From positions 518,702 to 582,701 of the forward strand of contig JAOZOU010000001.1 of assembly GCA_029933125.1 (NCBI GenBank): DNA of 64,000 nucleotides, given 5' to 3'. A model generated the notes under the pieces. It searched no databases and was not told the DNA's origin. It saw only the letters and a program-made list of their open reading frames with translations. Numbering within the stretch: the stretch's first letter is position 1; the number at the start of each line of letters is the position of its first letter. This document shows, in pieces, positions 7,103 to 59,980 of the stretch. The translations under genes were made by a program, and so were the position numbers. The DNA comes from a bacterium. Lineage in GTDB: Bacteria; Arandabacterota; Arandabacteria; Arandabacterales; Arandabacteraceae.

Positions 7103-9697
7103 CTATTTTATAGCCGCGGCGAGGAGCGAGTTAAAGAGAATTCTATAGGTTGAATATGTTTGTGCGCGATGGATAGGGTCGAAGCCAACAAGGACAATGT
7201 CACCCTTTTCATATGTGATGCGCACAACTGCTGCTTTCCCCTTGATTCGATCCTCTCCGTGAAGCCATCCGCTTAAGAGAATGCCATCATTTGGAAAGCG
7301 TGCAACCACCTCGCGGTTGAATTTGCCAAATGGAATGTGAGTCGAGAAGACCCGGCCATAAAAGAATAAGCAGGGTAGTTGAGGCTTCATGCCATAGCAA
7401 ATGGGATTGGTTGGATCAACCTCAAGCCTGAGAATTGCTCCTGGGCAGTTGAAGTCTTTTTCATTCACGTCCTTGAGCAAGTCCCTCGCTGGCAACCTGA
7501 ATTCATCTATGAGAAGGTCACATGCGGAGCCAATGGCGATGATGAGGCCTCCTGAGGTGACAAACTTCTTAAGAGCTTCTATGCCCTCGTCTCCAATGCC
7601 TCCCTCATAGGGGGGTGGCGGTGGTTCATAGAATTCTGCCCATCTGCCTGATGGCTTTCCATCCTTTATGATAGATGGTTGCAGTGAAGGAAGAATTATC
7701 ACATCAAAACCCTTGAGGAGTGTCGCTCTCTTGACATCATCCTTATGGATAACCCTGTATGAGTATCCAAAATCATCAAAAACATAGCGTAACCAGCCTT
7801 CCTGCTCGTTTGGGAAATAGGCTTGGAAGACAGCAATCTTTGGCTTGCGCAGCTTCCTCATGTGGGTATGCGTGAGCACAACACTTTGAAAATCGAGAGC
7901 AAGGCTATCGGAAAGCTCCTTCACCCTGGAAAGCATCTTAGTGGGGTTGTTGCTAAGATCCAGAATGATGGTCCCTGGCACGAGTGTCCCAGTTGAAGTG
8001 ACGACTGAATCTGTAAGAGTGTAAAGTTCCAGTCCACCTTCAAGAGCTCTATTTATAAGGACGTATGCTGAAAGTGTGCTGCGCCGAAGGGCAAGCATTG
8101 TGGCGGTCTGGGGAAGAGAGGATGGTGGGTATTCGATCCTTTCGCACATTTGGGTTCTTGCATCGAATGGCATAGCAATCGTATCAAGCATGACATCCAT
8201 CTTGAGAGGCATGGTCCAGGTTGTTGCATCATAAGGTTCAAGGGGTCGAGCTTCGGGGGCGAGCTTTATGAGCGGATAGTGATGAGGTTCAAGCATATCA
8301 CGAGCATAAGAACGGTAAGGTTGAGCTAGATAGATGATGTAGGTTCCATCGGGATATGCTCGGCCTTGAACCTCAAAGGGCTCAAGAGCCTGATGGATCC
8401 TTATACCTCCGAGCATAAGGCGTTCGAGCATACGGCAAGTCGTAAAGCGATCACCATCAGCTGGTATGATGTAGGCAAACGGGGCTTCTTTCTTCCCTTT
8501 CTCAATCGCGTCCCGACCCATTCGGTAAAGGTTGTAAAGGATTTCATGCTTATGTTTTGATGCTGCCTCGATGGCACCAACGAGTGCTGTCTCTTCATAG
8601 TCCATTATGTCACTGAGATGCCACCAGCCGCCTGGCCATGGATCTGGGAAATTGACCAACCGAGTGTAGCTGGGAAAACCGGTGCCCCCAGCTCTCAATT
8701 CGGATGGATCAACATAAACAGGTGATGCAATTCGAACAGTTGCTGCTTCCGTAAGGATGCTCGGGACATTGTGCCACAGAGGCGTCATTACTGATGCTCC
8801 TTCCCACCATGCTGGAAAGAGAGCATGGCTGAGGACACCCTTGAGTCCCTTTTGCTGAAGATTGAGGCGCATCTCTGAACCTATCACTTCTATCTCGCGC
8901 CAAACGAGAGGGTGGATGTTGGGATTAACTGGATCCGTGTAGGGCGGGACGAAAAAGCGTGCACCTGTCATCCACATTTCGTGATGGTCGAGAATTACCT
9001 GGGGAATCCATGTTTCGTACATGACCTTTGAGATGAGACGCGTCTCGGCAAGGTTGAACATATACCAATCACGATTATCATCGTGTCCAGCGTAGTGGTG
9101 ATAAAGCTGCGGCAACCAGCAGCCGTCATGTTCAGTTCCCCTCCAGCGTTCATACCACTTGCAGATCATCTGGTGTCCATCAGGATTGACACACGGAACA
9201 ACTAAAAGGATAACGTCGTTGAGGTAGCGGGTTAGCGTCGTATCGCCCGAAGCGATCCTGTGAGCAACCCTGAGTGCCATCTGTGTCGATGCTGCCTCAT
9301 CGGAGTGGATGGCACACATGTCGAGGAGAATGACCTTGCCTCGGGAAGCGTATTGATCAGCCTCATCGGGTGGAATCTCAGCATCTCTGAGTTTGCGAGC
9401 AATTTGTCTGTAATCACTAATCTCATCCCATACCTCTGGTGATGTTGCTATCATCATAATGAGGTCGTTGCCCAGCGTGGTTTTCCCAAGTGTAACCACA
9501 TCGATCCACGGTGAGACCGAATCGAGGTAGGCAAAGTAAGAGCACATCTCATCGTAGTCAGCAAGCACACCATCAGCGCCAATCGGCTTCCCGAGATAGT
9601 CATTGGGCGAAACAACACCACCGGAGCCCAGCGCAGGGACCAAGAATACGATCACAAGTGCGATTGTGACAGCTCTCTGGAAACCTAGAAATTGCAT
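7103..9697 (-). CDS. secreted M14-family zinc carboxypeptidase with C-terminal amidotransferase-like domain
   Basis: This 864-residue exported protein starts with a signal peptide. The M14 zinc ligands are visible as His131 and Glu134 (HSDEAAS), and a likely third ligand lies in ILDHHEMW; VVPCVNPDGH is also typical. The last third (AVFQAYFPNEQEGW, FDVIILPSLQP, GGLIIAIGSACDLL) resembles a class-I glutamine-amidotransferase-like Rossmann domain, often appended to large M14 peptidases. A longer reading frame begins at 9790, but its extra residues come from an inverted-repeat element. The ATG at 9697 has an AAGGAGGGG ribosome site and starts the signal peptide. It probably releases C-terminal amino acids from peptides outside the cytoplasm. 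It is transcribed alone. Confidence 0.85.
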   Translation of the reverse strand: MQFLGFQRAVTIALVIVFLVPALGSGGVVSPNDYLGKPIGADGVLADYDEMCSYFAYLDSVSPWIDVVTLGKTTLGNDLIMMIATSPEVWDEISDYRQIARKLRDAEIPPDEADQYASRGKVILLDMCAIHSDEAASTQMALRVAHRIASGDTTLTRYLNDVILLVVPCVNPDGHQMICKWYERWRGTEHDGCWLPQLYHHYAGHDDNRDWYMFNLAETRLISKVMYETWIPQVILDHHEMWMTGARFFVPPYTDPVNPNIHPLVWREIEVIGSEMRLNLQQKGLKGVLSHALFPAWWEGASVMTPLWHNVPSILTEAATVRIASPVYVDPSELRAGGTGFPSYTRLVNFPDPWPGGWWHLSDIMDYEETALVGAIEAASKHKHEILYNLYRMGRDAIEKGKKEAPFAYIIPADGDRFTTCRMLERLMLGGIRIHQALEPFEVQGRAYPDGTYIIYLAQPYRSYARDMLEPHHYPLIKLAPEARPLEPYDATTWTMPLKMDVMLDTIAMPFDARTQMCERIEYPPSSLPQTATMLALRRSTLSAYVLINRALEGGLELYTLTDSVVTSTGTLVPGTIILDLSNNPTKMLSRVKELSDSLALDFQSVVLTHTHMRKLRKPKIAVFQAYFPNEQEGWLRYVFDDFGYSYRVIHKDDVKRATLLKGFDVIILPSLQPSIIKDGKPSGRWAEFYEPPPPPYEGGIGDEGIEALKKFVTSGGLIIAIGSACDLLIDEFRLPARDLLKDVNEKDFNCPGAILRLEVDPTNPICYGMKPQLPCLFFYGRVFSTHIPFGKFNREVVARFPNDGILLSGWLHGEDRIKGKAAVVRITYEKGDIVLVGFDPIHRAQTYSTYRILFNSLLAAAIK

Positions 9698-56153: not shown

Positions 56154-56870
56154 TTACCAGGAAGCTCCTTTAACCCACTGGATGAGGTAGTTCATACGTC
56201 CTGTCAGCAGGGAAATACGCGCCATTACAGTGTAGCCGAAGGATGCTCCGAAAGCCGCCATCAAGATCCAGATGCCGAATCTGGCAACTCTTCCGAATGC
56301 GCCCTTATGCTCTTTTGAGAAGAAGAAGTAAACGAGAGCCGAAACAACTCCCCCAAAGACAACTAGCTGAGAGAAAATATTGCCAATGGTTGAAGCCGTT
56401 GTCGCACCTGGCTGATAAAGGGGAACCATTGTACTGTGAATCTGGCTTACAAAATCAGATTGAAGATAGCGTGTAAAATTGGTTCCCGCCGCAAAACCTA
56501 TGACAAATCCCATAGCCCATCGTGAGAGCCATGCGATTCTTGAAACCAATCGCGTGAGCAGAATGATACCAAATGCGAACGGTATGATATAGATCCATTC
56601 ACGAGGCTGTCCAACTGCAGCCGGCAGCACACCACCCATATGCGCTGGCCATAACCTGGCTATCATATTGGGTATCAGGGTTGTCCAGAAAGCAACCGTC
56701 ATCCAGTAGGCGGCTGAAATTCCAACGAAAAGATGCTCAGCAAACTTATAGAAGGGATTATCCTTGTAGAGAAAGCTGAATATCATGAGTGTAAGCAGTG
56801 AGGCTATCCACACCCCGACTGCATGCGCAACTGGAGTTGTCAGAATTGGTTGGCTCTCAAGGATAATCAT
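56154..56870 (-). CDS. uncharacterised membrane protein, fourth gene of DUF6754 cassette
   Basis: A 238-residue protein with about seven membrane helices and short loops (LLTLMIFSFLYKDNPFYKFA, IIPFAFGIILLTRLVSRIAW). No motif of a known transporter or enzyme is visible. Its ATG overlaps the stop of the upstream cassette gene by four bases, so it is translated with it. It always sits at the end of this four-gene run here. It probably forms an inner-membrane complex with its neighbours. Confidence 0.7.
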   Translation of the reverse strand: MIILESQPILTTPVAHAVGVWIASLLTLMIFSFLYKDNPFYKFAEHLFVGISAAYWMTVAFWTTLIPNMIARLWPAHMGGVLPAAVGQPREWIYIIPFAFGIILLTRLVSRIAWLSRWAMGFVIGFAAGTNFTRYLQSDFVSQIHSTMVPLYQPGATTASTIGNIFSQLVVFGGVVSALVYFFFSKEHKGAFGRVARFGIWILMAAFGASFGYTVMARISLLTGRMNYLIQWVKGASW

Positions 56871-57745
56871 CTGTATTTCCTCTTCCTCCTTCTCTCAAGC
56901 AGATAGGTTATGTTTCCAAGAATGATGAAAGCAACTATTACGAGGTGAGCTGTCACCTGCGGTCCCATAGTTGTGCTGGCTATGCGCGAACGCTTGGCGT
57001 ATTTGGGATATTTCTTCACTAAGGCATATTCATACTCAGCCGCGCCCTGAAGCCCACCCATAAATCCCACCATCTGCTTAGGATAGTATGGATAGAGAAG
57101 GGGGGCCATGACAGCCGTCGTTCCACCTCCGACAGGTATATCCCCAGGATCGCCAGCAAACTGGATCCACTCCTTGGTTCCGGGAAAGCCTGAACCCAAA
57201 CCTATGATGAGATCAAAGTCGCGCAAAGTCCGAATATCCTTCATCATAGGAAAGCTGTCGATAGGCTTGCCACTCATATCAGTTGTGTACATGCCCTTGA
57301 AATCAGAAAGCAGCGTATTTATGAGCCCCTGGTTGCCCGCTTTGTATCCAAGATGAATCCAATCAACCCCATAGACCTTGTCAGGAAATTCCACCTTTAT
57401 TATTTCGTCGATAAGCTGCTGGGACTGCCTCGATCCTGTTGGCCAGAGAGCCATGAGATAGATGCGATGGCTCTTTTCAAGAGCATGCCGCGTTACCGCA
57501 TTAGCCATAGGCTGATTTTCGGGAACAGTGCTCGGCCCATAGTCGAAGCTTATGAGTATTCTCGAACCACCAGGTAGGCTTTCTATTTTGTCAAAGAGGG
57601 ATTGAACTATCTCACTTGTTGGTATCGACGTCGCGTAGTGAAGAACCAATGGAATGATGACGGCTATTGCAATCAGCAAGAAGACATAACGACGATCAAC
57701 TGCGCCTAAGCGTTCAATAATTGTCAGTTTCTCTTCTTCAGCCAT
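56867..57745 (-). CDS. uncharacterised membrane-anchored protein, third gene of DUF6754 cassette
   Basis: The protein has an N-terminal membrane helix (YVFLLIAIAVIIPLVLHYA), a soluble domain of about 230 residues (SRILISFDYGPSTVPENQPM, FDLIIGLGSGFPGTKEW), and a C-terminal helix (TAHLVIVAFIILGNITYLL) followed by a basic tail. The soluble domain looks alpha/beta and faces the outside if the basic tail is cytoplasmic. I do not recognise the fold. The ATG at 57745 is just beyond the stop of the upstream gene, with AAGGA as ribosome site. It overlaps the next gene by four bases. Confidence 0.7.
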   Translation of the reverse strand: MAEEEKLTIIERLGAVDRRYVFLLIAIAVIIPLVLHYATSIPTSEIVQSLFDKIESLPGGSRILISFDYGPSTVPENQPMANAVTRHALEKSHRIYLMALWPTGSRQSQQLIDEIIKVEFPDKVYGVDWIHLGYKAGNQGLINTLLSDFKGMYTTDMSGKPIDSFPMMKDIRTLRDFDLIIGLGSGFPGTKEWIQFAGDPGDIPVGGGTTAVMAPLLYPYYPKQMVGFMGGLQGAAEYEYALVKKYPKYAKRSRIASTTMGPQVTAHLVIVAFIILGNITYLLERRRKRKYR

Positions 57746-57746
57746 T

Positions 57747-58433
57747 TCAATCCTTACCTTCGGTTCCGAGATAAGACCTTTCAATTCCAAGAATGAGTCT
57801 CAAAGATGCGGAAACAATCCCCAAGGCGATGCCAATCATGATAGCTCTTTGCCCAGCCATGTTAGGAACAGACATTATCCATGTGCTCAGATTTGGTATG
57901 TGCAAGAACTGCAAGGGTTTTGGCAACCAGAATGTGAGATAATAGCCGAGCGGCGTTGGTCGAAGAAGTATGACAAAGGCAGCAAGCAGAAGAATTGTTG
58001 CCTCCTTTGTCTTTGCTCTAAAGGCTCTGTATGAAGCCGACGCTACGAAAAATGCAAGCAAGGAAAACATCGTTGCCTGTAGAGGCTGGAAGGTTGCATC
58101 ATAAAGATACTTGAGAAGACTTCCATCAGCCTGATAATCACCAGTCCAACCACCTGGAACTCCAATCTTGAGGAGACCAGCACCAAGCATGAGGAAGAAT
58201 CCAGAGACGGTTACGATACTATACTTCCAATCCCGCCGCCGGTTCTGAATCCTTGAGAGATGGACCTTAAGCAGGTTGCCCCCACCAAGTATAAATGCGA
58301 AAACAGCAATGACATCGTAGAAAATCGAGAATTTGCTATCAAGTCCAGTGAAGGGCCAGTGCGGGATGAACATGGCAGCGATGAGGACAAGCCCAACAAT
58401 GAAGGTAATTACAAGTGGTACCGTCCGCTTCAT
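57747..58433 (-). CDS. uncharacterised membrane protein, second gene of DUF6754 cassette
   Basis: A 228-residue integral membrane protein with six or seven helices (VPLVITFIVGLVLIAAMFI, YDVIAVFAFILGGGNLL, ATILLLAAFVILLRPTPLGY). One loop is basic (LSRIQNRRRDW) and cytoplasmic by the positive-inside rule. No known family motif. It lies 13 bases after the DUF6754-like gene and immediately before the next cassette gene. Confidence 0.7.
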   Translation of the reverse strand: MKRTVPLVITFIVGLVLIAAMFIPHWPFTGLDSKFSIFYDVIAVFAFILGGGNLLKVHLSRIQNRRRDWKYSIVTVSGFFLMLGAGLLKIGVPGGWTGDYQADGSLLKYLYDATFQPLQATMFSLLAFFVASASYRAFRAKTKEATILLLAAFVILLRPTPLGYYLTFWLPKPLQFLHIPNLSTWIMSVPNMAGQRAIMIGIALGIVSASLRLILGIERSYLGTEGKD

Positions 58434-58446
58434 CTGAGTGCCTTCC

Positions 58447-59643
58447 TCAGAAATTCATCGTGAAAAGACGACGTAACCAGTTGCTTGCTGCAAGCAGAGT
58501 CTCATTTCCTGTAGTACTGGCAAGTGTTGCCAGAGCGACTCCGGCAACGATGAATATTAGAGCTATTGCCTTGCCTGCATCCTGGCCTTTGAGACTCCCT
58601 TGCATCTTTCGATCCTTCGAAAGATATGCACTCGCTGCAAAGAGCTCCTCACCGATGAGGGTGTAGTCACATGCCGCAACAAAGAATGGCAGCTGTGTTG
58701 GCATTGCAGTACCTGCAACTTGAATTGCACCGATCGAGTTGCCTGTCTCTGCAAGTATGAGAGATTCTGCAAAGAAAGCCCCCAGATAGAAACAAGCTGC
58801 TGGCCGCTGCCTGACCATTATTCCATCCACTGCTGCAACATAGCCAAATTGCTCATCCGTAATGTAGTGAACAATGTCGTCATTGTAGAGATCAGGTCTG
58901 CCAGCTTCAAGATAAGCCTGTCTGACTGTCTCCCGACCTACACTCATAACGATTGAACGTGAAACTGGAACCTCAAGCTTTGTTTCATAGGTTGCAGCCT
59001 TCCTGGCAATGTGCGCAAGCAGGGTCATACCTGCAACCGTCTGGACGTTATCCATATCCTGGATACCCGGTATGAAGAGAATCGGTTTACCCATCTCGGT
59101 TGCACGTCCAACAGCCTCATCGATGGCCTCCAGCCCGGAAATTCGTCTGATATAGAGTTCCTTCCCTTTTGCGCCAAGAAAAATGAAGTAAGTTATTGCA
59201 AAGACAAGGATAAGAGCAATGACAAGCAGATTAGCACGGGTGCGATCGAACCACTGTTGTTTTGATTGCACAGGTCCTGCAATGACGGGCGCACTCGCGA
59301 CGCTATCGGCTAAGGCCACTACCTGGTAATAATATGCAGTGCCATCATGCGTCCTTGAGTCAACAAAGCGGCGGGTTCCTCCTGGCACTTTGGCTACAAC
59401 TTCACTGCTCTCAGGTGATCCGACGTAACGTATGATTCTGTAACCCGTGATGATTCCATTTTCACCTGTGTCGCCTGGGGAAAGCTCCCACTCGAGAGTT
59501 ATGCTCCCACCCTTATCGCTCGGCGTGTCATATGCCTTCAAGGAAATCGGTGGCGGTACAGCGAGGGAATCACTTTCCTGGGCTATCGCACTTGACGCTA
59601 CGAGGATAGCAGCAAGCGCAACTATCAAGGCAACCTTATGCAT
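58447..59643 (-). CDS. exported fibronectin III / DUF6754-like membrane protein, first gene of cassette
   Basis: A signal peptide (MHKVALIVALAAILVASSAIA) is followed by a fibronectin type III domain (about residues 30-115: GSITLEWELSPGD, GYRIIRYVG, TAYYYQVVALAD), a membrane helix (NLLVIALILVFAITYFIFLGA), a cytoplasmic alpha/beta domain of about 210 residues (ISGLEAIDEAVGRATEMGKP, VQTVAGMTLLAHIAR) and a final hydrophobic helix. The arrangement matches DUF6754 proteins, whose role is unknown. The ATG at 59643 with AAAGGAT is preferred over a TTG at 59658. It leads a four-gene operon with its own promoter at 59692-59721. Confidence 0.75.
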   Translation of the reverse strand: MHKVALIVALAAILVASSAIAQESDSLAVPPPISLKAYDTPSDKGGSITLEWELSPGDTGENGIITGYRIIRYVGSPESSEVVAKVPGGTRRFVDSRTHDGTAYYYQVVALADSVASAPVIAGPVQSKQQWFDRTRANLLVIALILVFAITYFIFLGAKGKELYIRRISGLEAIDEAVGRATEMGKPILFIPGIQDMDNVQTVAGMTLLAHIARKAATYETKLEVPVSRSIVMSVGRETVRQAYLEAGRPDLYNDDIVHYITDEQFGYVAAVDGIMVRQRPAACFYLGAFFAESLILAETGNSIGAIQVAGTAMPTQLPFFVAACDYTLIGEELFAASAYLSKDRKMQGSLKGQDAGKAIALIFIVAGVALATLASTTGNETLLAASNWLRRLFTMNF

Positions 59644-59691: not shown

Positions 59692-59721
59692 TAGTAATCA
59701 TACGCTTGGCAGATCTGTCAA
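59692..59721 (-). promoter_or_regulatory. promoter of the DUF6754 cassette
   Basis: On the minus strand TTGACA (59716-59721) is followed after 18 bases by TTACTA (59692-59697), preceded by TGA as an extended -10. TATGAT overlaps at a shorter spacing. It is back-to-back with the rubredoxin promoter. Confidence 0.5.
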
Positions 59722-59815: not shown

Positions 59816-59980
59816 ATGAAGTACAGATGCAAAGTTTGTGGCTATGTCTACGATCCCGCTGTGGGTGATCCGGATAATAATGTGCCTGCTGGCACGAAGT
59901 TTGAAGACGTTCCTGATGATTGGGTCTGTCCGGCGTGTGGAGCTCCGAAAAGCATGTTTGAGCCTATGCAAGCGGAGTGA
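59816..59980 (+). CDS. rubredoxin
   Basis: A 54-residue rubredoxin with the four iron-binding cysteines at residues 5, 8, 38 and 41 (CKVCGY and CPACGAPK) and the usual [10 protein letters not shown] loop. It carries one electron in the cytoplasm, typically to oxygen- or peroxide-reducing enzymes in anaerobes. An AAGGAGG ribosome site lies 5 bases before the ATG. It has its own promoter, and no redox partner is adjacent. This points to an anaerobic or microaerophilic life. Confidence 0.95.

Follow-up and report, generated by a model that had tools for sequence, protein, structure and literature searches.

A 64,000-nucleotide window of an Arandabacterota genome (assembly GCA_029933125.1, contig JAOZOU010000001.1, positions 518,702 to 582,701) carries four adjacent genes on its minus strand, here called A, B, C, and D, at window positions 56154-59643. 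Comparison with related loci suggests that this cassette provides the membrane component of a larger assembly that also includes a GlmL-type ASKHA protein and an adaptor with an RnfC_N-like domain. As the cassette travels as a unit, almost always with the same ATP-binding and adaptor proteins, the quartet and its partners probably form a conserved molecular machine. The reading that we favour, with a probability of roughly 0.42, is that A-D make up one multi-subunit inner-membrane complex that works, driven by ATP, with a GlmL-type ASKHA ATPase and an adaptor common to all quartets.

Conservation of the quartet and its two partners

To establish how the cassette is distributed, we compiled 79 named loci from a scan of species genomes (we use the deposited names, some of which may be wrong for their bins). 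In these loci, 107 of the 123 A genes are followed in order by B, C, and D, which is more than chance; a further 12 run off the end of the sequence, leaving four exceptions (L073, L074, L075, and L084). The median gaps between A and B, B and C, and C and D are 10, 2, and -1 bases, most neighbours lie no more than 60 bases apart, and quartets often occur as tandem pairs or triplets. About a dozen phyla are represented among the named hosts, including Zixibacteria, WOR-3/Stahlbacteria, Fermentibacteria/Aegiribacteria, Latescibacteria, Eisenbacteria, Gemmatimonadota, and Planctomycetota, as well as Neomarinimicrobiota, Cloacimonadota, Poribacteria, Coatesbacteria, Acidobacteriota, Caldithrix, and others. 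Across 290 sampled genomes, the DUF6754 family to which A belongs was found in 81, with up to seven copies per genome, and the C profile was likewise found in 81, of which 79 were DUF6754-positive (Fisher p 3e-66; this and the other Fisher p-values ignore shared ancestry and are therefore descriptive). A restriction of the quartet to diderms was considered and dropped: Omp85 is present in 79 of the 81 positive genomes, but also in 272 of the whole sample of 290, so it does not discriminate. The window's own genome has six DUF6754 genes, five of which head full A-B-C-D quartets, while one stands alone without B, C, and D (L041, C42:420000-438000, at 8125-9246).

The members of each quartet also share a common history. 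Pairwise distances among A, B, C, and D agree with a mean r of 0.786, which falls to 0.466 when members are exchanged among quartets of the same genome (maximum 0.571 in 200 shuffles). Judged in this way, the quartets evolve as units; the pattern would be expected of obligate partners within each quartet and is not proof of contact. In a concatenated tree of 126 quartets, the five from the window's genome are scattered over separate deep branches, and the quartet of the window clusters with two loci, one from Gemmatimonadetes and one named Caldithrix, and with genome G014 rather than with its own paralogues. A previous reading of the window from its letters and open reading frames (hereafter the sequence-only reading) had proposed a fixed membrane complex and had named co-occurrence of the four genes in this order elsewhere as a check. 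Gene order and within-genome co-evolution both support that proposal, from which physical association is inferred.

The commonest genes flanking the quartet in the 79 loci encode a GlmL/MutL-type ASKHA protein of about 610 residues (PF13941, E 6e-129) and a barrel-sandwich protein of about 375 residues that matches RnfC_N (E 4.9e-8) and NQRA_N (1.5e-5). Genes for these proteins lie beside the quartet in 41 of the 79 loci, usually immediately upstream of A, and share its strand in 51 of 67 cases; in many Zixibacteria they are divergent. In Neomarinimicrobiota a single fusion protein of about 1000 residues contains both (L116 and L121), and in the divergent genome G067, C, D, and GlmL stand side by side (L144). 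The adaptor was found in 76 of the 81 DUF6754-positive genomes and in none of the 209 negative ones (p 2e-64), essentially once per genome, the few weak second matches being to a fused orphan family described below. Counted from the match listing, the operon-type GlmL occurs in 72 of the 81 positive and 2 of the 209 negative genomes. Both proteins are well conserved across phyla, with a mean column identity of 60% for the adaptor and 67% for GlmL, and the latter keeps the segments TDCGSTTTK, VDIGGATTD, and SGG, an intact ASKHA nucleotide-site signature. The window's genome has a single adaptor gene and a single GlmL gene, both beside another quartet (L007). The sequence-only reading missed these partners because the copy in the window lacks them as neighbours.

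The family name of the ASKHA protein raises the question of whether it is an accessory of a B12-dependent mutase whose link to the quartet is incidental. GlmL/MutL is described as a methylaspartate mutase accessory protein, and glycine-cleavage genes lie nearby in Fermentibacteria and at L007. However, the partner is about 150 residues longer and scores 230 bits against a GlmL equivalog cut-off of 475, no mutase subunit was recognised among its neighbours, and it is linked instead to a membrane complex and an adaptor that co-occurs with DUF6754. We consider this explanation very improbable, as co-occurrence disfavours it. The glycine-cleavage genes are an observation in their own right: gcvPA and gcvPB, with gcvT in five cases, lie upstream of the GlmL core in eight loci (L007, L081, L100, L103, L114, L115, L117, and L124), all from Fermentibacteria or the window's genome, and L007 also has a lipoate-ligase-like gene downstream. 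A biotin or lipoyl carrier role for the adaptor was rejected on inspection of the alignment, which shows no conservation of the lysine near the expected position.

The adaptor brings to mind a redox ion pump related to Rnf or Nqr, which likewise pair a barrel-sandwich domain of the RnfC_N/NqrA_N kind with a membrane part containing two six-helix subunits. Yet the adaptor match covers the barrel-sandwich hybrid alone, a domain common to many proteins; B and D match no Rnf-Nqr family; and an ASKHA partner is present here. The only cysteine columns conserved to at least 50% in A-D are C325 of A (96%) and the half-conserved C88 of C. Because conserved cysteine pairs are missing, we regard such a pump as largely excluded. 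Sequence searches found no significant solved relative of either GlmL or the adaptor.

The four membrane proteins

The features of the cassette in the window, all on the minus strand, are as follows.

58447-59643, minus strand: gene A, 398 residues; signal peptide, fibronectin III (FN3) ectodomain, transmembrane helix, cytoplasmic DUF6754 domain, second transmembrane helix
59263-59547, minus strand: FN3 ectodomain of A (residues 33-127), from profile search and fold
58504-59262, minus strand: DUF6754 match in A (residues 128-380; takes in the transmembrane helix on either side)
57747-58433, minus strand: gene B, 228 residues; about six transmembrane helices, both ends inside; conserved R136 and R196
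56867-57745, minus strand: gene C, 292 residues; transmembrane helix with its N-terminus inside, extracytoplasmic alpha/beta domain, C-terminal transmembrane helix with H267 and N278
57011-57613, minus strand: soluble alpha/beta domain of C (residues 45-245), from the structure model
56154-56870, minus strand: gene D, 238 residues; about six transmembrane helices; conserved E45, R107, and R218

The coordinates were reproduced, as was the spacing of 13, 1, and -4 bases (A-B, B-C, and C-D). The shared promoter that the sequence-only reading placed at 59692-59721 did not hold up: a TTGACA hexamer is present (59721-59716), but no acceptable -10 hexamer follows 16-18 bases on, and a promoter scan omits the site. 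Co-transcription of A-D is therefore suggested by their spacing only.

Protein A is a clear member of DUF6754 (PF20539), matching positions 2-254 of the 257-position profile at 404.6 bits against a cut-off of 27 (E=1.8e-121), which turns the earlier label of "DUF6754-like" into a firm assignment. Pfam states no function for the family, and B, C, D, GlmL, and the adaptor do not appear in the family description that we saw. None of the open-licence papers searched names DUF6754. The proposed extracytoplasmic FN3 domain was also borne out: profile searches match titin and neogenin FN3 domains (down to 6.5e-28), and Foldseek searches with the AlphaFold2 model of A (predicted local distance difference test score, pLDDT, 92.7) return FN3 structures at E about 6e-6. 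Hydropathy over 102-114 homologues, together with flanking lysine and arginine residues, places FN3 outside and DUF6754 in the cytoplasm, since positive charges flank both transmembrane helices on the DUF6754 side. The earlier description of A as an FN3 domain, a helix, and a cytoplasmic domain was thus correct as far as it went, and had overlooked the second transmembrane helix that follows DUF6754. No solved relative of DUF6754 was found by sequence search.

The two faces of A differ widely in conservation, with a mean pairwise identity across homologues of 67% for DUF6754 (residues 165-345) and 30% for the ectodomain; DUF6754 contains invariant D, E, and R residues. This contrast would also suit a signalling complex in which an external ligand is detected by the FN3 domain of A and the domain of C, and in which DUF6754 controls the state of GlmL, the latter being a cytoplasmic switch rather than a motor. 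The sharing of one core by several quartets agrees with this explanation, as do the DUF4388 gene and small unidentified genes directly 3' of the quartet in WOR-3. Still, two polytopic subunits and membrane-embedded conserved charges exceed the needs of a sensor, and the genes beside the quartets yielded no recognisable partner of the kinase, cyclase, GGDEF, or DNA-binding kind, so that we hold signalling to be unlikely, if worth keeping in view.

By the same topology analysis, C consists of a helix, an outside domain, and a second helix, and B has about six transmembrane helices with both ends inside. The domain of C is placed outside because two positive residues precede the first helix and six come after the second. 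D also has about six helices by hydropathy, in a less clear-cut pattern. The earlier claims that B and D are polytopic and that C is a soluble domain clamped between two membrane helices therefore stand. None of the three has a convincing match in Pfam or NCBIfam (19 B and 19 D members were searched with hmmscan). No ABC transporter family scored above its cut-off for A-D, GlmL, or the adaptor, TMD0_ABC reaching only E 0.026 in B members, and none of the six proteins matched a PADLOC family, which removed anti-phage defence from consideration. Nor did family searches turn up, for any member, a clear homologue with an unrelated role, a finding that the sequence-only reading had said would refute it. 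Relationships within the unit were rejected as well: profile comparison with hhalign gave a probability of 3% for the A and C domains, which look alike by eye, and 4% for B and D, and neither A nor C is related to the barrel-sandwich adaptor.

The model of C is confident (pLDDT 95.2), and its weak Foldseek resemblance to GT-B-type glycosyltransferases leads to another explanation, namely that the alpha/beta domain of C, DUF6754, or both are catalytic in lipid or glycan modification, with B and D facing the lipid. The modelled domains are Rossmann-like and the invariant D, E, and R residues of DUF6754 would fit an active site. However, none of the Foldseek matches of C reaches significance (best E 2e-3, TM-score <0.35), C matches no catalytic family, and the GlmL partner is left unexplained, which makes an envelope enzyme improbable. 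Sequence searches likewise found no solved relative of C.

Several polar residues in or near transmembrane segments are conserved: H267 and N278 of C and E45 of D occur in 100% of aligned homologues, R107 and R218 of D in 97-99%, and R136 and R196 of B are also conserved. The three invariant residues in C and D would fit an Exb/Tol/Mot-type device powered by protons or sodium, in which B, C, and D form an ion channel and GlmL only assembles it. ExbB/ExbD/TonB genes do lie within 10 kb of the quartet in WOR-3, Fermentibacteria, Zixibacteria, and one Gimesia. Against this, B and D have no homology to ExbB, MotA, or TolQ, and the Exb/Ton genes, which have no sequence relationship to the quartet, are separate and complete and are linked to it in only a few lineages. 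We regard this device as quite unlikely. In five WOR-3 loci (L067, L086, L093, L094, and L104), the genes that come right after D are, in order, a DUF4388 gene, four small uncharacterised ones, and ExbB/ExbD/TonB.

A putative ATP-driven envelope machine

Under the favoured reading of an ATP-driven inner-membrane complex, the ASKHA protein would bind or hydrolyse ATP, and the adaptor would link GlmL to A through the nearly invariant DUF6754 domain in the cytoplasm, relaying the ATP event. The transmembrane bundle of A, B, C, and D could carry this change across the membrane through its conserved charged and polar residues, and the extracytoplasmic domain of C and the variable ectodomain of A would bind a cargo or ligand. 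The most likely outcome would be that an envelope substrate is exported, inserted, or gated at the expense of ATP. Several quartets per genome may serve different substrates with one shared core; the quartets differ by ectodomain and therefore presumably by ligand. In this scheme, the gene order, the co-inheritance, the topology (from hydropathy), the nucleotide-site signature of the ASKHA protein, and the single core alongside several quartets are observed, whereas the physical association of A-D and their partners, the coupling to ATP via GlmL, and the direction and nature of the substrate are what we infer. There are precedents for cytoplasmic actin-fold ASKHA proteins serving inner-membrane assemblies, namely PilM in type IV pili and GspL in type II secretion. 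The arrangement proposed here is similar in that respect, but the membrane subunits differ, genes for pili or secretion were not recognised among the cassette's neighbours, and GlmL belongs to another branch of the ASKHA superfamily.

Some observations weigh against this reading. The GlmL and adaptor genes do not adjoin the window's own quartet, five DUF6754-positive genomes lack the adaptor, and the complete-looking genome G014, which has three quartets and an adaptor, gave no GlmL match at E<=1e-40. The neighbours of quartets without the core are inconsistent, and no substrate gene was identified. Homology does not fix the output either, as Foldseek found nothing significant for C and solely FN3 structures for A.

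Family searches assign only A and the two partners to named families. More tentatively, the quartets may represent a new class of envelope machine, found in about a dozen mostly uncultured phyla, in which one core of an ASKHA ATPase and a barrel-sandwich protein powers several exchangeable quartets, each having an ectodomain of its own, for ATP-driven transport or insertion across the inner membrane, using a mechanism with no relation to those of known transporter families. That the cytoplasmic parts are highly conserved across phyla suggests that the unit is central to groups such as Zixibacteria, Planctomycetota, Gemmatimonadota, WOR-3, and Fermentibacteria. Such a machine would supply a function for DUF6754 as well as for a large GlmL branch, one that annotation pipelines would tend to associate with glutamate mutase, and the analysis supplies six defined genes that could be deleted in a cultured host. 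In the open-licence papers searched, we found none that ties DUF6754, PF13941, or GlmL to such a complex, and the text of a paper on essential genes of Planctopirus limnophila (PMC10632474) does not contain these names.

Variant loci and neighbouring genes

Individual loci depart from the common arrangement in several ways. In a Zixibacteria genome, DUF6754 and a peptidase S49 (SppA-type) domain share a single reading frame (L073:9806-12193). Elsewhere, four copies of C surround one B and one D behind a single DUF6754 gene (L145, genome G128, C38), a local amplification of C. In a Neomarinimicrobiota genome, A and B are separated by an insertion of unrelated genes that may form a restriction or defence island (L121:5561-11908).

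Beyond the quartets, there are orphan fusions of GlmL and a barrel-sandwich domain of about 950-1030 residues (L134-L139), two of which begin with a helix-turn-helix-like segment (L137 and L138); their neighbours are inconsistent and were discarded as a clue to function. A family of proteins of about 115-165 residues with the motif PAIxFLExxKPLSFxGSQ and no clear Pfam family, which we call A9, is encoded near the core in 20 named loci (for example, L085:13516-13866). In the window itself, a rubredoxin gene with CxxCGY and CPxCGAPK motifs lies at 59816-59980 on the plus strand, divergent from the cassette.

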